Part shown: positions 12,083 to 63,078 of the stretch, one piece after another | Position numbering within the stretch: the stretch's first letter is position 1 | How the letters are laid out: each line of letters starts with the position of its first letter | From: Litchfieldia alkalitelluris | GTDB taxonomy: Bacteria > Bacillota > Bacilli > Bacillales > Bacillaceae_L | Direction: 5' to 3' | DNA: 64,000 bases | NCBI RefSeq assembly: GCF_002019645.1 | Contig: NZ_KV917374.1 | Location: forward strand, 5,292,369-5,356,368 | Made by a program: the position numbers and the translations under genes | The notes under the pieces: generated by a model | Told to the model about the DNA's origin: nothing | The model's input: the letters and a program-made list of their open reading frames with translations, nothing else | Databases searched by the model: none

Positions 12083-12120
12083 AAAAAAAGCTATCTCCCG
12101 AAATAGAGAGATAACTTTTT
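12083..12120 (-). terminator. Terminator of the 791-residue protein gene
   Basis: The stem AAG-TATCTC / GAGATA-CTTTTT has an AAATA-containing loop and a T run on the minus strand. It lies about 110 bases past the stop codon at 12227. Confidence 0.75.
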
Positions 12121-12226: not shown

Positions 12227-14602
12227 CTAATGATCGCGATTCACCATATAATTTAGTAAATGTTTTAAAAAGGTTGTATCACGAGGAATCTCTCCTAACA
12301 CTTCAGTTCCAATACAATAATGCTCCCACATTGCTTTTCTAGCAGCTTCTCGGCCTAAGACTGAGACAAATGTTGAATTGTTGTTATCAGCATCTATTCC
12401 AGCTGATTTTCCAAGGATGTCTGTATTACCTTCTACATCTAGAAGATCGTCCTTAATTTGAAAAGCAATGCCTGCATGTTTCGCATATTTTTTCAGTGCT
12501 TTCACTTCGGCATTCTTTGCCTTAGCCAGAATCGCCGGCATGACAAGAGAAGCTTCAAAGGCTTTTCCGGTTTTATAGAAACTTAGGATATTCAATTGTT
12601 CCAAAGTTAATGGTTTCCCTTTTGAATTCAGATCCATCGCCTGTCCATTGCACATATCCTCTGTTAACCTAGCAGAGTATTGAATTAATGAAAGCACCGT
12701 TTTTGCATCAAACTGATCAAGAGTAGTTTGTTCCTCAATTGCCTTTTGAGTTAAAAAAAGGCCAGTTAATTCTGCAATCGCAGCATTATATACTTGATGT
12801 AAAGTTGCCCGTCCTCTTCGAGTGGACGCATTATCCTGAGCTGGCAAATCATCAAAAATCAGTGAAGCTGTATGCATATATTCTAGGGATTTTAACAGTG
12901 GTAGAATGGCTGATTTCGTTAATCCATATTGGTATATGCCCATAACCCAGGTTACAATAGGTCTCAGTCGCTTTCCATCTGCTTCAAGACTAAAATTTGC
13001 TGCCTCAACAATAGACTCACTCATCAAAGGTGATGTTTCTTTCTTAGAAATTGGAAGGATCGCATTAATCTCATTGCGAATCGTTTTAATCGTATTTAAG
13101 AAGTCTTCCCGCTCTTTTCGTTCATTTCTTAGGTTGGATATCATATGATCTCGAAGGAGCTTATCAAAGAAATCCACGTCATCTGCTTTTCTCACCATTC
13201 TTTGAATAAGGCTATTAAAGTCAGGATGACCTGAAGCAAACAGATCCATTACTTCTTGGTACTTTTCAAGACCCATTTTTTCTTTATACCGCTTTAATCC
13301 ATTTATTGCTCGATTTAAGATGATATCACTTGTTTTTGGATCAGACTTATACACATTATGAATTAAATTAGAAATAACCGTCCAATACAGTTCAAAGGGA
13401 TTAATAAGGTCTGAGCGCTGTTTATGATATTTCAAATAATACGTATAAGGTGTGACCGCACCATTCCTTAAATCCTCATACATATCGGCAAAATCATCTG
13501 CTAGTTGGTTGTAAATACCATATAAGAAAGTCCGCTCATCAAACCCCTCATCCTCAGGTACACTTATAACCGACCGAGCAATTAATCGTGAAAAGGCGGA
13601 TTTTAAAATAACCGATACATATAGTTCCTCATTAGTATAGGTTGAAATATATAACTCTTTCTCTCGGTCAACTTCCTGTGAGTGAAAGAACACATATGAT
13701 TGCTCAAAAAACATTGTAATCGTTTCTTCTTGCTGATGTTCCTTAATGTACTCAAACGCTTCTTTTAACTCTGAATGAATAAAGGTAATTAAATCCTTAT
13801 TCTTTCCTGTCCATTTACCCAAAGTTGGAACATTACCTGTAATAAGTGCCGTCCGAATCATACTTGCATACTGCTTACTTTCTTCCAGAGATAAAATGTT
13901 AGCATCCAACAAATCATCGATAAAGGGGTAAGTAAGACCATAGGAATAGCCTAATCGTATGGCTTCATCCAGTCTCCGTCTACGTTCATTAGGCGATACG
14001 TTGTCACCCATTTCTTCGATAACGTGCATGAGTACCCCGGCTATAATTTTCATCAGCTTTCTTTGTGCATTCTCAGCATCCATTCCATCTGGGATATTAT
14101 CTGAAACCGTCTTTATTTTATTTAACACCCAAATCATGGCCGATTCGATGTTTTCCTTCTGAGCTTTCCTGTATAACCCAGCCATAGTAAATGGTTCATC
14201 CCTGGTAGTAGTGGAGTGTAATAATTGAGTTTTTAAATTCTCAACGGTATTTCGGATTTTCACCTGCGTATCAGCTGAGTCCAATGTTTTTCCTAAATCT
14301 CGTAAAAAAAGATAAGAAATGCTTCGATCCAAGTAATCATCTAGTTTACCTGTATATTTGAGATACTGAATATAGTTGTGGTAATCCTTTTGACTGGGTT
14401 TTTTCTTTATGCGTGAAAACATGGAGAGAAATGTTGGATGGTGAATATGCTTTTGTTTCCATGATTGAAAATCCTCCGTTAAGATAGGGACATATGCCTT
14501 TTCCTTAACTTGTTCATTAAGTAGTGTGAAATACTGAGCGGCTTTCCTCTCAGCTATGTGATAGCATTCATCGGCGGCGGTACTTCTTAACTCTGCATTC
14601 AT
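12227..14602 (-). CDS. Two-domain isoprenoid synthase-like protein (polyprenyl synthetase fusion)
   Basis: The 791-residue protein has a C-terminal half (about 500-790) that is a complete trans-polyprenyl diphosphate synthase. It carries GKRLRP at 543-548, a first Asp-rich motif DDLPAQD at 584-590, RRGRAT at 595-600, GQAMDL near 653-658 and a second Asp-rich motif QIKDDLLD at 715-722. The N-terminal half (about 1-480) is all-helical and unusual. It has its own DDLLD at 229-233 and, 135 residues later, ADDFADMYED at 368-377. That spacing is expected for the two metal-binding motifs of a class I isoprenoid synthase fold. The protein may therefore make a prenyl diphosphate and use it in the same polypeptide. 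No terpene or quinone genes are adjacent. It is monocistronic, with AGAGGTAA upstream of the start and its own terminator. That the C-terminal domain is a prenyltransferase is firm; the N-terminal assignment is inferred from motifs. Confidence 0.8.
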   Translation of the reverse strand: MNAELRSTAADECYHIAERKAAQYFTLLNEQVKEKAYVPILTEDFQSWKQKHIHHPTFLSMFSRIKKKPSQKDYHNYIQYLKYTGKLDDYLDRSISYLFLRDLGKTLDSADTQVKIRNTVENLKTQLLHSTTTRDEPFTMAGLYRKAQKENIESAMIWVLNKIKTVSDNIPDGMDAENAQRKLMKIIAGVLMHVIEEMGDNVSPNERRRRLDEAIRLGYSYGLTYPFIDDLLDANILSLEESKQYASMIRTALITGNVPTLGKWTGKNKDLITFIHSELKEAFEYIKEHQQEETITMFFEQSYVFFHSQEVDREKELYISTYTNEELYVSVILKSAFSRLIARSVISVPEDEGFDERTFLYGIYNQLADDFADMYEDLRNGAVTPYTYYLKYHKQRSDLINPFELYWTVISNLIHNVYKSDPKTSDIILNRAINGLKRYKEKMGLEKYQEVMDLFASGHPDFNSLIQRMVRKADDVDFFDKLLRDHMISNLRNERKEREDFLNTIKTIRNEINAILPISKKETSPLMSESIVEAANFSLEADGKRLRPIVTWVMGIYQYGLTKSAILPLLKSLEYMHTASLIFDDLPAQDNASTRRGRATLHQVYNAAIAELTGLFLTQKAIEEQTTLDQFDAKTVLSLIQYSARLTEDMCNGQAMDLNSKGKPLTLEQLNILSFYKTGKAFEASLVMPAILAKAKNAEVKALKKYAKHAGIAFQIKDDLLDVEGNTDILGKSAGIDADNNNSTFVSVLGREAARKAMWEHYCIGTEVLGEIPRDTTFLKHLLNYMVNRDH

Positions 14603-15048: not shown

Positions 15049-15083
15049 AAAAACACTTAGATTTACATTATCCAAGTGTTTTT
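15049..15083 (-). terminator. Terminator of tagGH
   Basis: The stem AAACACTT-GA / TC-AAGTGTTT has T-rich sequence after it on the minus strand. It lies about 30 bases past the tagH stop. Confidence 0.75.
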
Positions 15084-15113: not shown

Positions 15114-15917
15114 TCACTTTGCTGTTGCTAAACCACTTTGCTTCTTCATTACTTCTTCGCGGAATTTTTTCTGTTCCTCGGCAGACATTGCTTTATGGTG
15201 CTTCAGAAATTTTTCATATTCAGGGATAATTTCTTCTACCGGGCCATAGTCTTTTATTTCACCATACTCAAGCCAAATCGCTTTTTGACAGAATTCTTTA
15301 ATTTGCCCCATTGAATGGCTAACGAAGAAAATGGTTTTACCTTTTTCTCTAAACTCAAACATTTTATTTTTGGACTTTTGTGCAAATACTTGATCTCCTA
15401 CAGAAAGTGCCTCATCTATAATTAGAATATCAGGATTAACGGTAACTGAAATTGCATAACCAAGACGTGACCTCATCCCGCTAGAGTACTTTTTAACAGG
15501 TTGATCAATAAATTTACCAATATCAGCAAACTCAATGATATCAGCTTCCATCTCCTTAATTCCTCTCTTTTTAAACCCAAGCATCAAGCACTTTAATTCA
15601 ATATTTTCCCTACCAGTTAATTGATTATTAAGACCAGATGAGATGGCGATAATAGATGTTTGTCCAATGGTCTCCACTGTACCAGATGTTGGAGGAATTA
15701 CGCCTCCAATAATATTTGAAAGTGTAGATTTTCCTGATCCATTCACACCAACAAGTCCGATTACGTCGCCTTTTCTTGCAGTAAACGATATATCTTGAAG
15801 AGCATAAAAATCCTCCCCATATCCTCCTGGTAAAATTACATCCAATAGCTTTTCTTTTGATGATTTATGCATCTTATATTTCTTATAGACATTTTTAACG
15901 ATAACCGTTTCACTCAT
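15114..15917 (-). CDS. tagH: Teichoic acid ABC exporter, ATP-binding subunit TagH
   Basis: The 267-residue ATPase has Walker A GVNGSGKST (57-65), signature SSGMR (145-149) and Walker B DILIIDEALSVGD (163-175). Its length and the conserved IGGVIPPTSG and GLNNQLTGREN stretches match TagH/RfbE-type polysaccharide exporters. It lacks the long C-terminal extension of B. subtilis TagH. With TagG it moves completed wall teichoic acid across the membrane. The ATG at 15917 is favoured over a TTG at 15932 because GGATGG lies 7 bases upstream. The tagG stop codon lies only 16 bases before it, so the pair is one operon. Confidence 0.92.
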   Translation of the reverse strand: MSETVIVKNVYKKYKMHKSSKEKLLDVILPGGYGEDFYALQDISFTARKGDVIGLVGVNGSGKSTLSNIIGGVIPPTSGTVETIGQTSIIAISSGLNNQLTGRENIELKCLMLGFKKRGIKEMEADIIEFADIGKFIDQPVKKYSSGMRSRLGYAISVTVNPDILIIDEALSVGDQVFAQKSKNKMFEFREKGKTIFFVSHSMGQIKEFCQKAIWLEYGEIKDYGPVEEIIPEYEKFLKHHKAMSAEEQKKFREEVMKKQSGLATAK

Positions 15918-15932
15918 GTGCTCACCATCCAA

Positions 15933-16763
15933 TCATAAATAATCAACAAAACGGTTTCTAAACTTCAAATGCAAAGTTGAACCAAGTAAAAATAAAAATA
16001 ACATCATTACCCAAAAATAAAGGGTATATTCTGCGTGTTCAACAAAATACCAGTTTGTCCCTAACAATGAGGCTCTATATCCTTCTACAAGATAATAAAG
16101 GGGATTCAACTTTAATAAGATTGTTAAATTCATACCATTAAGTTCTAATTTTTCAGTATGCCAAATAAGCGGAGTTAAATATAAAAGCAATCTTAAAACA
16201 GAGTGTATGATTTGTTGCACATCACGGATAATTGTAGAAATAGTTGATGTAATAAGTGCAAGAGCAAACAAAAAGATTAACGTTGACACCATGAAATAAG
16301 GTAACTGGATATAATAAATGGAAATCTTAAATTGAGTAAACTGCAAGTAAAGCATCACAACCCCTATTAGCATTAAATGCGTATAGAAATTGGCCATAAT
16401 AACAAATGACGGAATCGCACTCATCGGAAAACTCATTTTAGCAATTAAATTAAGTCTTGAATAAATTGATTTTGACGACTTTGAAATGGCTGGATTAACA
16501 AAAAACCAAACAACCATCCCCGTTACCATCCATGTGAAAAAAGGAACATCTACACCGTTTTCCATCGTTATATTTCGACCACCGCGCACTCCAACTCCGA
16601 ACACCAACCAATAAATTGAAAGTTGAATAATCGGGTTTAGGATTTCCCAAAGTCGGCCCAAGTAATTATTCGTATTGGCACTTTTCATCTCAAAAGCGGA
16701 GAGTCTAAGGATTAGATAAAAGGAACTAATTTGCTCCCTTATAATTGTAACCATTGACTTCAT
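15933..16763 (-). CDS. tagG: Teichoic acid ABC exporter, permease TagG
   Basis: The 276-residue protein has six hydrophobic segments in the ABC-2 export permease arrangement. It includes the GRLWEILNPIIQ motif near the N terminus and NPLYYLVEGYR before the last helices. It is the membrane partner of TagH and is encoded immediately upstream of it. GGAAGG precedes the ATG. The genes share the teichoic acid neighbourhood with tagD and tagF but are separated from them by about 1 kb of dispersed repeats. Confidence 0.92.
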   Translation of the reverse strand: MKSMVTIIREQISSFYLILRLSAFEMKSANTNNYLGRLWEILNPIIQLSIYWLVFGVGVRGGRNITMENGVDVPFFTWMVTGMVVWFFVNPAISKSSKSIYSRLNLIAKMSFPMSAIPSFVIMANFYTHLMLIGVVMLYLQFTQFKISIYYIQLPYFMVSTLIFLFALALITSTISTIIRDVQQIIHSVLRLLLYLTPLIWHTEKLELNGMNLTILLKLNPLYYLVEGYRASLLGTNWYFVEHAEYTLYFWVMMLFLFLLGSTLHLKFRNRFVDYL

Positions 16764-17794: not shown

Positions 17795-18193
17795 CTAACC
17801 ATTCTCTACAATCTTCAAGTCCTTTTTAATTTTCGATGTAGAAATCCCAATCGTTCTCGGCAAATAAATCACTTCACAATATTCTTTAAGGAAGTCAAAC
17901 CGACCTTCCCAATCATTTCCCATCACAAATACATCAACTTCATGTTTAATAACATCTTTAACTTTTTGATCCCAGGTGTTTTCAGGAATTACCTCATCAA
18001 CAAAGCTAATCGACTCTAAAATCATTTTTCTATTATCAAAGCTATGATAGGCTTGTTTATTTTTTCCATCATTAAATTCATCCGTAGAAAGGCCGACGAT
18101 TAAGTAATCCCCCAACGCTTTCGCACGTTTTAATAAATTCACGTGCCCGAAATGGAGTAAATCAAAAGTACCATAAGTTAATACTTTTTTCAT
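17795..18193 (-). CDS. tagD: Glycerol-3-phosphate cytidylyltransferase TagD
   Basis: The 132-residue enzyme has the nucleotidyltransferase motif HFGH (residues 14-17), the GLSTDEFN stretch and the RTIGISTSKIK motif near the C terminus. It makes CDP-glycerol from CTP and sn-glycerol 3-phosphate, the precursor of poly(glycerol-phosphate) wall teichoic acid. Its length matches the family. AAAGGAGG precedes the ATG. It is divergent from tagF across a 236-bp gap, so one intergenic region controls precursor supply and polymerisation. Confidence 0.95.
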   Translation of the reverse strand: MKKVLTYGTFDLLHFGHVNLLKRAKALGDYLIVGLSTDEFNDGKNKQAYHSFDNRKMILESISFVDEVIPENTWDQKVKDVIKHEVDVFVMGNDWEGRFDFLKEYCEVIYLPRTIGISTSKIKKDLKIVENG

Positions 18194-18429
18194 TCAAATG
18201 TCCTCCTTTAAAATCGAAAAAGGTTCCTTTTATCATTATAGAGGTGGATATCAAATTTATGCCATAATGTCAAAAATTGACTTATCTACACTAAAATTAG
18301 TACGAGTGGTGAAAGCGCGTTTGATATACACATGATTTATCCACTGAAAATGTTGGTTTTGTGTATAGATTTATATCACAGGTAAATACTAGGAGGTATG
18401 AAATTTTTTTATAATAGGGGAAGAATACA
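18194..18429. promoter_or_regulatory. Divergent tagD/tagF control region
   Basis: The region carries promoters for both genes. It is AT-rich, with a stretch of TTGATATACACATG-like sequence near 18320-18335 and AGGAGG at 18391-18396. I could not settle individual promoter boxes. Confidence 0.4.
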
Positions 18430-20529
18430 TTGAACAGAAAAAAACGAGATAAAAATTGTTATTTGGATTTATTATATTTTCAAGATCATAACTTATACAT
18501 TCAAATTGTTTGTTCAAAATTAATCAGTGATGGCCATTTGAAATTACTTTTTGTTGAACGATATACAACTAAAAAGAGAGAGTTTATCTTAACGGGCATA
18601 AATGATATTGAACATAAATATGAAGTTAGCCTACAAGAAACAGACTTACAACATTTAATGAGTGAGGGAAAAGACTGGGATGTTTATGTCACTAATGAAT
18701 CTAATACGAGAATCAGATTAAGCAGCAATGATTTAGAATTAGAGCTTCTTTTCTATCTCAATGAAGGTCAAATGCTGACACCCTTCACAACAAATAATGG
18801 TAATGTATCCTTCAAATCGCAGCTACCACAATTGATTTCGAAAGTAGATCAGATAGATTTTATCAATAAAGATCGCATTGCTATCAAAGGTTATGTAGTT
18901 AATCCTTTATGGAAAGAGCAGCCTGTTGAGTTAAAAAGGACTTTAATCCTACGAACAAATGATGATGAATTTTCTTATAAAATCCCCTTAAAAATCGTCG
19001 AACTTAATAAAATTGCCAAACAATATAACCACGGGGGATATAACTTTCTTCCAATTGGCTTTGAAGCTGTCTTTTCTATCACAGATTTAGTATCAAAAGT
19101 AAAAAACGATTCAGTTACGTTAAAGGCACGAATTGAACTTAACTATTACGAAGAAAATAAAACTAAAACAACTGAGACCCCTCCGATCAAACTAAAATCT
19201 CCTAGTTTCAAGAAAAAATCTCTGGTTAAGAAGGTAGATGCTAATAAGAAGCTAATCTCTATATCCAGAACAAAAAAGGCGCGACAATTAAATATTAGCA
19301 TGAATGAATATAATTTTAAAAATCACATCAAGGCTCGTGTCAAGAAGCGATTCCTCTCAATTAAAGGGCATTCTCTTGTTAAAAATATCTACAAAAAAGC
19401 TTTTCATTACATTGGTTTGATGCCGACAAAAACGAAAAAAATTGTTGTCTTTGAGAGCTTTCTTGGAAAGCAGTTTAGCGATAACCCTCGGGCCATCTAT
19501 GAGTATTTAAAAGAAATTAACTATCCCTATAAATTATATTGGAGTGTTGATAAAAAATTTCTTCATAACTTTCAAGATAAAGATCTTAATATTATCCGCC
19601 GATTTTCAGTAAAGTGGCTTTTAATTATGCCACGTGCACGTTTTTGGGTAACAAACTGTAGGCTCCCTTTATGGCTACCTAAACCTAAGAACACCATATA
19701 TTTTCAAACATGGCATGGCACTCCGCTTAAACGACTTGCTGCAGATATGGATGAGGTCTATATGCCCGGAACAACGGCTGAGAGTTACAAAAAAAACTTC
19801 GTCAAGGAAGCACAGAATTGGGATTATTTAATTTCTCCAAATGCTTACTCAACTGAAATTTTTCAAAGAGCCTTTCAGTTTGAAAAAGAAGTGTTAGAAA
19901 CTGGTTATCCACGAAATGACTTTATCTGTAATAACGATAATATGGATACGATTAATAAATTGCGAGCAAGCTATGGAATTCCTTCGGCTAAGAAGGTCAT
20001 TTTATATGCTCCAACATGGAGAGATAACCAATTTTATGCAAAAGGGAAATATCGGTTTGATATTAATTTAGATTTAGATTTATTACAGGAGAAATTGGGA
20101 AAAGATTATGTAATACTTTTTCGATTACATTATTTAATTTCAGAGAACCTTGATTTATCACCATATGAGGGCTTTGCCTATGATTTTTCAAATCACGAAG
20201 ACATCCGTGAGCTTTATTTAATGGCAGATGTTTTGATGACTGATTACTCTTCGGTATTTTTCGACTACGGAAATTTAAAGCGCCCGATGATCTTTTATGT
20301 TTATGATATTGAACAATATCGCGATAATCTTCGTGGATTTTATTTTGACTTTGAACAGGAAGCGCCAGGTCCATTGGTAAAGACGACAGAGGAAGTAATT
20401 CAAACGGTTAAAGAAATGGAAGCGAATGATTTTCAGATGTCTCAAAAGTTTGATGCATTTTATGAGAAATTTTGTTATTTGGAGTGTGGGGATTCGACTC
20501 GGAAAGTGGTAGAGAAGGTATTTTTATAA
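18430..20529 (+). CDS. tagF: CDP-glycerol glycerophosphotransferase, TagF family
   Basis: The 699-residue protein has a C-terminal Glyphos_transf domain (about 330-695). Its motifs are QTWHGTPLKRL, ETGYPRND, LYAPTWRD, LFRLHY and TDYSSVFFDYGNLKRP, in family order. The N-terminal 300 residues form an extra beta-rich region followed by a basic stretch (KKARQ... ARVKKRF) that could bind the membrane or polymer. It polymerises glycerol phosphate from CDP-glycerol onto the linkage unit. The TTG start has AGGGGAAG upstream. Priming enzymes TagA and TagB are not in the window, so the linkage-unit genes must lie elsewhere. Confidence 0.9.
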   Translation: MNRKKRDKNCYLDLLYFQDHNLYIQIVCSKLISDGHLKLLFVERYTTKKREFILTGINDIEHKYEVSLQETDLQHLMSEGKDWDVYVTNESNTRIRLSSNDLELELLFYLNEGQMLTPFTTNNGNVSFKSQLPQLISKVDQIDFINKDRIAIKGYVVNPLWKEQPVELKRTLILRTNDDEFSYKIPLKIVELNKIAKQYNHGGYNFLPIGFEAVFSITDLVSKVKNDSVTLKARIELNYYEENKTKTTETPPIKLKSPSFKKKSLVKKVDANKKLISISRTKKARQLNISMNEYNFKNHIKARVKKRFLSIKGHSLVKNIYKKAFHYIGLMPTKTKKIVVFESFLGKQFSDNPRAIYEYLKEINYPYKLYWSVDKKFLHNFQDKDLNIIRRFSVKWLLIMPRARFWVTNCRLPLWLPKPKNTIYFQTWHGTPLKRLAADMDEVYMPGTTAESYKKNFVKEAQNWDYLISPNAYSTEIFQRAFQFEKEVLETGYPRNDFICNNDNMDTINKLRASYGIPSAKKVILYAPTWRDNQFYAKGKYRFDINLDLDLLQEKLGKDYVILFRLHYLISENLDLSPYEGFAYDFSNHEDIRELYLMADVLMTDYSSVFFDYGNLKRPMIFYVYDIEQYRDNLRGFYFDFEQEAPGPLVKTTEEVIQTVKEMEANDFQMSQKFDAFYEKFCYLECGDSTRKVVEKVFL

Positions 20530-27466: not shown

Positions 27467-27572
27467 AAAGAGGTAAGGGAACCATAATCCCCTTACCTCT
27501 GCCCAGGCGAACGGCTAACGACACTATGTGCTCCCTTACGGTTATCCGTCTTCGCCAGTCACACACAGCCTT
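27467..27572 (-). ncRNA. ZTP (pfl) riboswitch with terminator hairpin
   Basis: On the minus strand the aptamer core reads GTGACTGGCG, then a short stem GACGG/CCGT, GGGAGC, and then CCGTTCGCCTGGGCA. These are the conserved blocks of the pfl/ZTP riboswitch, in order. Right after it, AGAGGTAAGGG pairs with CCCTTACCTCT (27467-27500) as the expression-platform hairpin, followed by TTTCTGTAT. ZTP or ZMP signals 10-formyl-tetrahydrofolate shortage and would turn serA on. The leader continues about 115 bases to the serA start. Confidence 0.85.
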
Positions 27573-60155: not shown

Positions 60156-60325
60156 TTAAGAAGCATTATTTTTGGAAAGCAAATATTCAATTATTTCTAT
60201 CAGGTCTTTCCAAGCAGATAATTTTGACCACTTCCTAACCGGAGTAAAGGCCATACGGACAGCCGGGTCAAATGCCGATTGGCAACCTTTCGTTGCCTTA
60301 TTGATTGAGTTTGAAGCTCAAATTT
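60156..60325 (-). pseudogene. Short coding remnant, unidentified
   Basis: A minus-strand frame open from about 60322 to TAA 60156 encodes INKATKGCQSAFDPAVRM, continuing to a helical end. It has no start codon with a ribosome-binding site. The region is richer in GC than its surroundings and contains a GGCAAC/GTTGCC hairpin. It may be the end of a decayed gene or a structured RNA. The rest of 59884-60400 shows nothing I can support. Confidence 0.3.
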
Positions 60326-60710: not shown

Positions 60711-61949
60711 ATGGGAAAAGCACTTATTATCGGTTGTGGTGGAGTAGCTTCAGTAGCTATCCACAAATGTGTTCAAAATAGTGATGTATTTGAGGAAATT
60801 TGTATTGCAAGTCGTACGAAGTCAAAATGTGATGACTTGAAAGCTAAGTTAGACGGTGGAAAAACAAAAATTACAACTGCACAAGTTGATGCAAATAATG
60901 TTGATGAATTGATTGCTCTAATTGAAGAGGTAAAACCAGACATCGTAATGAACCTTGCGTTACCATATCAAGACTTAACAATCATGGATGCTTGTCTTGC
61001 TACAAAAACGCATTACATGGACACTGCAAACTATGAGCCAGAAGATACAGCAAAATTTGAATATAAATGGCAGTGGGATTACCGTGAGCGTTTCGAAAAA
61101 GCTGGAATTACAGCTCTATTAGGAAGCGGATTTGACCCAGGTGTAACAGGTGTTTTCTCTGCACATGCACTTAAGCATCACTTTGATGAAATTGAATATA
61201 TTGATATTCTTGACTGTAATGGTGGGGATCATGGTTATCCATTTGCAACGAACTTTAATCCTGAGATTAACATTCGTGAGGTTTCTGCGAACGGAAGATA
61301 CTGGGAAAATGGCGAGTGGATTGAAACTGCACCAATGGAAATCAAGCGAGAATATAATTTCGCTGAAGTTGGTATGAAGGATATGTACTTACTGTACCAT
61401 GAAGAACTAGAATCTCTTGCAGTAAACATTCCAGGACTTAAGCGTATCCGTTTCTTTATGACATTTGGTCAAAGCTATTTAACACACCTTAAAGCTCTTG
61501 AAAATGTTGGAATGACTTCTATTGAGCCGATTGAATTCGAAGGAAAACAAATCATTCCTCTTCAATTCTTAAAGGCTGTATTACCAGACCCAGCATCACT
61601 TGGGCCACGTACAGTTGGTAAAACAAATATCGGTTGTATCTTCCAAGGTAAAAAAGATGGAAAAGATAAAACATATTATGTTTACAATGTATGCGATCAT
61701 CAAGAGTGTTACAAAGAAGTTGGTTCTCAAGCTATTTCTTATACAACTGGTGTACCAGCAATGATTGGTGCAATGATGATTATGACTGGAAAGTGGAATA
61801 AACCAGGCGTATTTAATATTGAGGAATTTGATCCAGATCCATTCATGGAAGAATTAAACAAATGGGGACTTCCATGGCAGGAAGATCATAATCCAGTTCT
61901 TGTAGACGGAAAGCCTGAAACAGCAAAAGAACCGGAGCTAGTTCGATAA
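60711..61949 (+). CDS. Carboxynorspermidine synthase (saccharopine dehydrogenase family)
   Basis: The 412-residue protein has an N-terminal Rossmann motif LIIGCGGVASVAIHK and the carboxynorspermidine dehydrogenase pattern NLALPYQDLTIMDACL, YMDTANYEP and GSGFDPGVTGVFSAHAL. It joins L-aspartate semialdehyde to diaminopropane or putrescine with NADPH, giving carboxynorspermidine or carboxyspermidine. The decarboxylase follows after one base, which confirms the assignment. AGGAGA precedes the ATG. Confidence 0.93.
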   Translation: MGKALIIGCGGVASVAIHKCVQNSDVFEEICIASRTKSKCDDLKAKLDGGKTKITTAQVDANNVDELIALIEEVKPDIVMNLALPYQDLTIMDACLATKTHYMDTANYEPEDTAKFEYKWQWDYRERFEKAGITALLGSGFDPGVTGVFSAHALKHHFDEIEYIDILDCNGGDHGYPFATNFNPEINIREVSANGRYWENGEWIETAPMEIKREYNFAEVGMKDMYLLYHEELESLAVNIPGLKRIRFFMTFGQSYLTHLKALENVGMTSIEPIEFEGKQIIPLQFLKAVLPDPASLGPRTVGKTNIGCIFQGKKDGKDKTYYVYNVCDHQECYKEVGSQAISYTTGVPAMIGAMMIMTGKWNKPGVFNIEEFDPDPFMEELNKWGLPWQEDHNPVLVDGKPETAKEPELVR

Positions 61950-61950
61950 A

Positions 61951-63078
61951 ATGAGGTTCGAAGAATTACCAACACCATGTTATGTAATTGACGAAGGACT
62001 TTTAGAAAAAAACTTAAAAATCCTTAACGGCGTTAGAAACCGTACAGGATGTAAGATTATCTTGGCACAAAAAGCATTTTCAATGTATAAGCTGTATCCT
62101 CTTATTGGTGAATATTTAGATGGTACGACTGCAAGTGGCTTATACGAAGCTCTTCTTGGTCATGAAGAAATGGGCAAAGAAAACCATGTCTTTGCCCCAG
62201 CATTCCGGGATGATGAAATCGATGAAGTGATTTCAATTTGTGACCATATCATTTTTAATTCCTTCTCGCAGCTGGAAAGATATAAGGATAAAGTGCTTAA
62301 AGCCGGCAAAAAAGTTGGTTTGCGCATAAATCCTGAACGTTCCACGCAAGATGGACATGATATCTATGATCCATGTGCTCCTGGTTCTCGTTTTGGGGTA
62401 ACTAAATCTCAGTTCCGTCCCGATTTGCTCGAAGGCGTTTCTGGCCTGCATTTTCACACACTTTGTCAACAAAACTCTGACGATTTAGCTAAGACACTTG
62501 AAGCTGTAATTGAAAAGTTTGGTGAGTATCTTCCACAGATGGAATGGATTAACTTCGGCGGCGGTCACCATATTACAAGAGTAGACTATGATATTCCATT
62601 ACTAGAAGAGTGTATCAAGAAAATGCAAGATAACTATGGATTAGAAGTATATCTAGAGCCAGGTGAAGCAGTTGCGCTGAATGCAGGTTACTTAATCACA
62701 ACGGTCCTTGATACGATTAAAAACGGAATGGATATCGCTATTCTTGATACGTCTGCATCATGCCACATGCCTGACGTATTGGAAATGCCTTATCGCCCAC
62801 CTCTTTTTGGGTCAGGTGAAACAGGGGAAAAACCATTTACGTATCGCCTTGGTGGACAAACATGTATGGCTGGAGATGTGATTGGAGATTATTCCTTTGA
62901 TCAGCCATTACAGCTTGGAGATCGTTTAGTATTTGGTGATATGGCCATTTATTCAATGGTTAAAAACACTACGTTTAACGGAATGGCACTTCCAGCAATC
63001 GCTGTTCAAGATAAAGATGGTAACTGTCGTGTCGAGCACCAATTTGGTTATCAAGATTTTAAGATGAGACTAGCATAA
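61951..63078 (+). CDS. nspC: Carboxynorspermidine decarboxylase NspC
   Basis: The 375-residue PLP enzyme is a fold-type III (alanine racemase-like) decarboxylase. The PLP lysine K41 lies in LAQKAFSM, the phosphate-binding NFGGGHH and LEPGEAV motifs follow, and the catalytic Cys271 is in SASCHMPD. It turns carboxynorspermidine/carboxyspermidine into norspermidine/spermidine. Its ATG is one base after the synthase stop and has only GGAGC in front, so translation is coupled. A terminator follows. Confidence 0.94.
   Translation: MRFEELPTPCYVIDEGLLEKNLKILNGVRNRTGCKIILAQKAFSMYKLYPLIGEYLDGTTASGLYEALLGHEEMGKENHVFAPAFRDDEIDEVISICDHIIFNSFSQLERYKDKVLKAGKKVGLRINPERSTQDGHDIYDPCAPGSRFGVTKSQFRPDLLEGVSGLHFHTLCQQNSDDLAKTLEAVIEKFGEYLPQMEWINFGGGHHITRVDYDIPLLEECIKKMQDNYGLEVYLEPGEAVALNAGYLITTVLDTIKNGMDIAILDTSASCHMPDVLEMPYRPPLFGSGETGEKPFTYRLGGQTCMAGDVIGDYSFDQPLQLGDRLVFGDMAIYSMVKNTTFNGMALPAIAVQDKDGNCRVEHQFGYQDFKMRLA

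Follow-up and report, generated by a model that had tools for sequence, protein, structure and literature searches.

A candidate two-step terpene synthase in Litchfieldia alkalitelluris and other Bacilli, with a class I-like domain fused to a prenyl diphosphate synthase

In the bacterium Litchfieldia alkalitelluris (NCBI RefSeq assembly GCF_002019645.1), a stretch of 64,000 nucleotides, hereafter the window (contig NZ_KV917374.1, positions 5,292,369 to 5,356,368 of the forward strand), contains a gene whose single product joins an all-helical N-terminal half to a C-terminal prenyl diphosphate synthase. Motifs and structure models indicate that this protein is probably a bacterial assembly-line diterpene or sesterterpene synthase with a non-canonical class I N-terminal domain. 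In such an enzyme, the C-terminal half would condense dimethylallyl diphosphate (DMAPP) with isopentenyl diphosphate (IPP) to an all-trans prenyl diphosphate of 20, or possibly 25, carbons. The N-terminal half would hold that diphosphate through metal ions on its motifs DDLLD and DDFADMYED, expel pyrophosphate and convert the cation to a hydrocarbon or alcohol, probably a cyclic one. We infer activity, metal binding, chain length, cyclisation and the transfer between the halves from sequence comparison and modelling. The original prediction, made from the DNA letters of the window, had raised the possibility of a bacterial chimeric terpene synthase; this interpretation is plausible and comes out strengthened, and there is a good case, on motifs and models, that the protein represents a new variety of two-step terpene synthase in bacteria.

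The gene (12227..14602, minus strand, as are all features of it given below) is a single intact open reading frame (ORF) of 791 codons, read from an ATG start at 14602 to a stop codon at 12227-12229. A single frame had been predicted here and was found, but on the minus strand; the plus-strand frame across 12227-14602 has many stops. The N-terminal half, residues 1-480 (13163..14602), is delimited from its AlphaFold model, Foldseek comparison and weak matches to the family PF00348 in 20 of 46 members, and consists of a helical lead domain (about residues 1-180) followed by a class I isoprenoid-synthase-like domain (about 180-480), residue 180 being an estimated boundary. The C-terminal half, residues 500-791 (12230..13105), is assigned to the all-trans prenyl diphosphate synthases on PF00348, solved structures and Foldseek.

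The C-terminal half and its chain length

Judged by its family match and motifs, the C-terminal half is a complete all-trans prenyl diphosphate synthase, as had been predicted. PF00348 matches residues 531-755 with an E value of 2.3e-46, the only match of the protein at the Pfam cut-off, and the half aligns with solved farnesyl diphosphate (FPP) and geranylgeranyl diphosphate (GGPP) synthases (for example 5ayp, E 9.9e-41) and has a Foldseek match to FPP synthase (E 1.1e-12). Its NCBIfam scores all lie under the curated cut-offs (FPPsyn 213.4 vs 275; CrtE 168.3 vs 460). Motifs were counted in 96 of 98 family members, L132 and L149 being left out (695 and 650 residues by a crude choice of start). 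The IPP-binding element GKRLRP (residues 543-548; 12959..12976) follows the pattern GKRxRP, present in 91 of the 96 C-terminal halves. The first Asp-rich motif, DDLPAQD (residues 584-590; 12833..12853), is DDLPxxD in 95/96, the last Asp missing in L119, and the second, QIKDDLLD (residues 715-722; 12437..12460), is Q..DD..D in 96/96. GQxxD and RRG are each present in all 96 and KTG in 95, and His577 stands seven residues ahead of the first Asp.

The chain-length position of this half resembles that of GGPP rather than FPP synthases. Type-II GGPP synthases have small residues at positions -4/-5 before the first motif and a two-residue insertion with Pro, according to the sections of PMC9385802 drawn on here. 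The C-terminal half conforms to this rule: the fifth residue before the motif, Ala579 (12866..12868), is Ala in 96/96, position -4 is Ser, and the motif itself contains the Pro (DDLPxxD). Because aligned FPP synthases also have the insertion (Staphylococcus aureus FPP synthase reads HTYSLIHDDLP and the GGPP synthase Sy-CrtE HTMSLIHDDLP), position -5 is the discriminating point, and the separate IspA-like enzyme of the same genome has Tyr there. With Ala at -5 and the Pro-containing insertion, C20 (GGPP) would be the likeliest product, and possibly C25.

The N-terminal half: motifs, fold and possible roles

The N-terminal half was compared in an alignment of the query with 45 relatives that are 47-71% identical to it (46 rows in all) and in a second one of 63 rows. 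In its putative first metal-binding motif, DDLLD (residues 229-233; 13904..13918), D229, D230 and D233 are invariant in 46/46 and 63/63 rows. The same holds for Q366, D369, D370, D373 and D377, the four Asp of which belong to the putative second metal-binding motif, ADDFADMYED (residues 368-377; 13472..13501), and the pattern NQxxDDxxDxxx[DE] occurs in 96/96 N-terminal halves. All seven motif Asp are thus invariant, compared with 13 of the 73 acidic residues of the half (crude hypergeometric chance 1e-6), and these motifs are more than a chance occurrence. The four motifs of the protein lie at the residues named in the original prediction, and the two of the N-terminal half proved to be fully conserved among homologues. 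From first Asp to first Asp, they are 140 residues apart, compared with 134 in the C-terminal half.

Further residues of the N-terminal half recall the prenyl synthases. By order and spacing, Q309, K334 and Q366 correspond to their Q, K and Q. The sequence QEVD (residues 309-312; 13667..13678), taken from its spacing as the equivalent of GQxxD, has an invariant Q309 and belongs to a pattern, [SA]QExDR, found in 84/96; Lys334 (13601..13603), likewise matched by spacing to the KT lysine of prenyl synthases, is invariant in both alignments (46/46, 63/63). Q309 and K334 are 25 residues apart and Q654 and K677 of the C-terminal half 23, and in both halves a Gln sits three residues ahead of the second DD. 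D369, D373 and D377 follow one another at 4-plus-4 spacing, like the metal-binding triad of terpene synthases; since prenyl synthases, too, commonly have an Asp at +8, this spacing does not separate the two groups.

This likeness, together with the weak PF00348 matches of 20 of the 46 members, would suit a second chain-elongating prenyl synthase, which would build a longer chain in two stages or form an internal heterodimer with the C-terminal half. We regard such an enzyme as quite improbable, since GKRxRP occurs in 0/96 N-terminal halves and RRG in 1/96, and the His that precedes the first Asp by seven residues in the C-terminal half is replaced in the N-terminal half by an invariant Gly222. 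With the diphosphate-ionising site kept and the IPP site lost, the N-terminal half should ionise a prenyl diphosphate and finish the reaction without adding IPP, probably in a cyclase-like step, and cyclisation would be the simplest outcome of ionisation without IPP.

That the half is an inactive scaffold or regulatory domain would agree with the lack of a canonical terpene synthase motif, yet this seems highly improbable: the motif Asp are kept far beyond the acidic residues at large, the N-terminal half is conserved nearly like the C-terminal one (mean identity to the query in 62 relatives 67% and 70%, respectively), and two aligned unfused relatives, described below, retain DNxxDD and Q..DD..D...D. 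Among the three roles originally offered for the N-terminal half, the regulatory pseudo-domain was rejected on the invariant motif Asp and the second prenyltransferase is unlikely for want of GKRxRP, which leaves terpene synthase as the best remaining option on motifs and models.

The structural comparison agrees with a class I isoprenoid synthase fold, which is likely for this half but not certain. AlphaFold, run on residues 1-490 with the 63 rows, gave an all-helical model, as had been predicted from the sequence, with a mean pLDDT (predicted local distance difference test) of 85.5 and a pTM (predicted template modelling score) of 0.87. DDLLD ends a kinked helix (204-222 and 226-233) and DDFA ends helix 352-372, in keeping with the placement of these motifs on helices D and H in class I enzymes. 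A Foldseek search of the PDB with this model returned 553 matches up to E 10. Of the best 50, 48 bear the title or name of a prenyl or terpene synthase, and the two others are 7buv (TPT3), presumably a trans-prenyltransferase, and 9a4c; nearly all the matches listed are thus class I isoprenoid synthases, though with weak E values, and the fold unlike an isoprenoid synthase that would have counted against the original prediction did not appear. Among these 50, the best superposition is with BjKS, a bacterial diterpene synthase (template modelling (TM) score 0.63 by target, root-mean-square deviation (rmsd) 6.2).

Alternatively, the N-terminal half would pass the prenyl group made by the C-terminal half not to IPP but to another acceptor, for instance a tryptophan in a peptide or a small molecule of aromatic or polar nature. 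The retention of the motif Asp with the loss of the IPP motifs would fit any such acceptor. Precedent comes from ComQ, which prenylates peptide tryptophan. PalQ, a peptide prenyltransferase of Paenibacillus in the abstract-level literature consulted, offers another. The gene neighbourhood lends this reading no support. In 98 loci with flanks (BLAST E 1e-6, minimum 35 residues; at least three genomes counted twice, as L050/L120, L051/L089 and L056/L097), the commonest neighbour family occurs at 25/98 loci in scattered positions, although genes under 35 residues or with no BLAST similarity would escape this comparison. A same-strand gene of at least 80 residues lies within 100 bp downstream at 14/94 loci and upstream at 6/94. 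The fused gene is an orphan that stands alone, and a gene cluster or a precursor peptide partner is unsupported by the comparison of the 98 loci. A non-IPP acceptor is unlikely.

Several results weigh against a terpene synthase in the N-terminal half. The canonical (N/H)DXX(S/T)XXXE (NSE/DTE) motif occurs in 0/96 N-terminal halves, and no conserved tailoring or partner gene was found beside the fused gene in the 98 loci, which leaves it with no pathway context. In the Foldseek search of the model no match reached E <=0.001, the best being 0.004, and the superpositions on the listed prenyl synthases are poor (TM 0.22-0.47, rmsd about 14-19). The weak sequence signal of the half points to prenyl and not to terpene synthases: PF00348 is matched by 20/46 member N-terminal halves when E values up to 1 are admitted (3.2e-4 at best), whereas terpene synthase families are missing from the 25 of 52 families listed for the 46 halves. 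Even this signal was absent when the window's own N-terminal half and six members were scanned singly, and nothing in Pfam or NCBIfam matches the window's half at an E value below 0.02. None of the seven matches from a profile search of PDB sequences is related (best E 0.041), and an hhalign comparison of the N- and C-terminal half profiles was not significant (E 0.11). A recent internal duplication of the C-terminal half as the origin of the N-terminal one was rejected on this last value. Given weak and mostly badly superposed structural matches and weak sequence matches, the fold assignment is to be read as likely rather than certain. Of the chimeric terpene synthase originally proposed, the fusion and the Asp motifs stand, and the expected NSE/DTE motif and a terpene synthase family match do not appear.

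The two halves are predicted to be stiffly joined. In a full-length AlphaFold model (pLDDT 83.8, pTM 0.78), a continuous helix of residues 479-515 (13058..13168; block pLDDT from 73 to 91 over residues 471-520) crosses the join, and no disordered long linker is predicted between the halves, a feature relevant to the way in which the intermediate could be handed from one to the other.

Distribution, relatives and genomic setting

The fused gene is spread patchily over Bacilli and some Clostridia, and full-length matches are always fused. Distribution was searched with the N-terminal half alone as query, in overlapping samples that include the own genome. It was found in 15/17 genomes of the family, 45/396 of the order and 45/398 of the class, two of the last being weak short matches; a profile of the half matched 9/398 genomes of the phylum, one of them with a distant unfused relative. 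The remaining matches all lie in open frames of 775-859 codons, the fused form by length, and the G350 copy carries a stop codon. The two weak matches of the class sample, in G500 and G719 (E 8.8e-4 and 7.9e-4 over 59 and 68 residues) were treated as chance, as was an own-genome match (L004, E 0.005) in an ORF that is arabinofuranosidase-like by eye. A scan of 84,980 species, each represented by a single genome, gave 456 stretches encoding a relative, and the best 80 of the 456, 64-72% identical to the query, were kept. Named hosts include Neobacillus, Bacillus, Paenibacillus, Sporosarcina, Psychrobacillus, Lysinibacillus, Cytobacillus, Virgibacillus and Clostridium; the fusion, which was to be sought in other Bacillaceae, was thus found there and far beyond. 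Of 344 matching plasmid records none covered more than 80% of the query, and the best 20 of the 344 match the C-terminal half only.

A quickly built tree of 86 proteins nests two Clostridium rows and one Clostridia bin among Bacillaceae rows, with SH-aLRT values of 84, 87 and 95 at the forks around them, which suggests, without proving it, transfer of the fused gene between Bacillaceae and Clostridia. A record titled Arthrobacter beigongshangensis (L117) also has the fused gene and groups with Sporosarcina in the tree; it is possibly a mislabelled or mixed assembly.

The distant unfused relative, a protein of 397 residues in G1098, was matched by the profile at E 1.3e-8 over residues 227-388 of the N-terminal half. 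Used as query, it matched 4/101 genomes, its own included, recovering, besides a second unfused protein of 411 residues in G849 (E 3.8e-47), the fused proteins of G422 (E 4.2e-7) and G399 (E 7.2e-7) as reciprocal matches. Another unfused relative occurs in G1057, two of the three genomes of the order of G1098 carry one, and in its class G849 alone of 13 genomes has one. The two class I-like unfused proteins of 397 and 411 residues, from other Bacillota (L178:8212-9447 and L179:3-1193, both on the minus strand), resemble the fused N-terminal half over about residues 174-388 and share a like second motif (Q..DDLQDVxxD); they lack the prenyl synthase half, and their first motif is DNxxDD, whereas that of the fused half is DDLLD. 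Neither matches a Pfam or NCBIfam model at E values up to 5, and hhalign aligned one of them with the N-terminal half over 181 columns, second motif included, with a low probability of 17.6% and an E value of 0.0014. No prenyl synthase gene was seen by eye among the ORFs listed near them (L178 3500-15000; L179 1-6000). The L178 gene adjoins ORFs that are transposase-like by eye.

In the window, terminator-like hairpins from a consensus scan lie just 3' of the gene (12085..12120) and between it and the upstream ABC-transporter-like genes (15049..15083); the scan found three hairpins in the region vs a shuffle mean of 2.1. With hairpins on its own strand on both flanks, the fusion gene may be transcribed alone. 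By eye, the neighbours at 15114-16763 (minus strand) and 17795-20529 include TagGH-like ABC transporter genes, a glycerol-3-phosphate cytidylyltransferase-like ORF and a teichoic-acid-polymerase-like ORF. Elsewhere in the window, the Rfam family SpF59_sRNA (ldcC RNA, a Streptococcus family) matches 60225-60278 on the plus strand (68.9 bits), about 430 bases ahead of two ORFs (60711-61949 and 61951-63078) that are carboxynorspermidine synthase-like and decarboxylase-like by eye; instead of a free sRNA, this may be the leader of a polyamine gene. A ZMP/ZTP riboswitch match lies at 27494-27572 on the minus strand (59.3 bits).

The host genome of 5.43 Mb has a separate IspA-like gene, a HepT-like gene and YtpB. 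With IspA-like and HepT-like genes present, the fused enzyme, the third synthase of the genome, looks specialised. At E 0.01 the host genome gave no squalene/phytoene synthase match and no PF19086 match, the latter a negative with a weak control, in that one of 14 control sequences matched, below the cut-off. The host genera are mostly spore-formers, and sporulation control was therefore considered. Crude promoter patterns, scored in 77 upstream regions of relatives against shuffle means, gave no excess for sigma F/G (1 vs 1.5), sigma E (2 vs 3.15), sigma K (1 vs 1.5) or sigma H (1 vs 1.15), and such control was set aside; a stricter sigma G pattern scored 1 vs 0.45 and sigma A 0 vs 0.25. A sigma-B-like pattern occurs in 7/77 regions, vs a shuffle mean of 2.5 and a maximum of 6 in 20 shuffles.

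Relation to known terpene synthases and meaning

The nearest known design is that of the fungal prenyltransferase-terpene synthase chimeras (PTTS), such as the fusicoccadiene synthase PaFS, which have the same one-chain order, class I domain first and all-trans prenyl synthase last. The domain order of the bacterial protein is that of PTTS, and the class I nature of its N-terminal half is drawn from the model and weak matches. Lengths are similar (about 700 residues for PTTS candidates in the sections of PMC8307374 covered, vs 791 here), and the C20 product predicted for the prenyl synthase half is a further point in common. The differences lie in the host, a bacterium instead of a fungus; in the N-terminal half, which is free of any terpene synthase family match; in the motifs, the terpene synthase domain of PTTS having DDXXD/E and NSE/DTE (same sections of PMC8307374), whereas here DDLLD is kept, the second motif is DDFADMYED and NSE/DTE is found in 0/96; and in the join, a flexible linker of about 70 residues in PaFS (PMC8190136, in the part drawn on) vs a predicted helix here. 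The bacterial fusion probably arose independently of the fungal PTTS.

Chimeras of an N-terminal class I terpene synthase and a C-terminal prenyltransferase were called unique to fungi in 2021 (PMC8307374) and are mentioned from fungi only in the 2023 text available (PMC10563020), and the covered portion of a 2020 paper mentions no such chimeras (PMC7192455). Among the literature matches listed, by titles and abstract starts, there is no bacterial fusion of this type; bioRxiv and most subscription journals lay outside the scope, and this partial coverage is no proof of novelty. Bacterial two-domain terpene enzymes have other partners, namely a class II cyclase in the class II diterpene cyclase/class I fusions (PMC11469919, in excerpt) and a HAD domain in the bifunctional drimenol synthases (PMC9128629, in excerpt), instead of a prenyl synthase.

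Among single-domain enzymes, the IspA/CrtE-type all-trans synthases include the C-terminal half as one of their number, and the N-terminal half shares with them two Asp motifs and the Q and K positions; it differs in lacking the IPP-binding motifs and in having about 180 extra N-terminal residues. Class IB (YtpB, BalTS) likewise comprises non-canonical class I proteins found in Bacilli, and these, too, carry two Asp-rich motifs. A YtpB-type assignment was rejected: the class motifs DYLDNLXD and DY(F,L,W)IDXXED (PMC11234867, in the passages drawn on) each occur in 0/96 N-terminal halves, hhalign against the YtpB of the same genome gave E 0.23, and the window protein has no PF10776 match. The same passages of that 2024 paper describe non-canonical classes IB to IF, of which ID, IE and IF are class I-like and, as here, not recognisable by sequence. 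They place at least one of these, PeuTPS, outside a terpene gene cluster, count 823 homologues for class IE, the class of SalTPS, and make no mention of a prenyl synthase fusion for classes IB to IF. Of the class ID motifs given there, D(N/D) is trivially present in the N-terminal halves, RXXKD occurs in 1/96 and ND in 42/96.

In its boldest form, the proposal is a new, independently evolved bacterial class in which a non-canonical class I cyclase is rigidly fused to its own GGPP or geranylfarnesyl diphosphate (GFPP) synthase, a single-gene pathway of Bacilli and Clostridia to C20-C25 terpenes not yet known, and we give this an even chance. If true, it would be a bacterial counterpart of the fungal chimeras with a different type of cyclase and no flexible linker predicted, and would suggest that such a design has had more than one origin. 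It would also offer a compact scaffold on which to test whether fusion channels the prenyl diphosphate. A terpene would then be predicted in many Bacilli whose gene has a family match only on the prenyl synthase half, and the fusion is a pointer to terpenes still to be discovered across many related bacteria.

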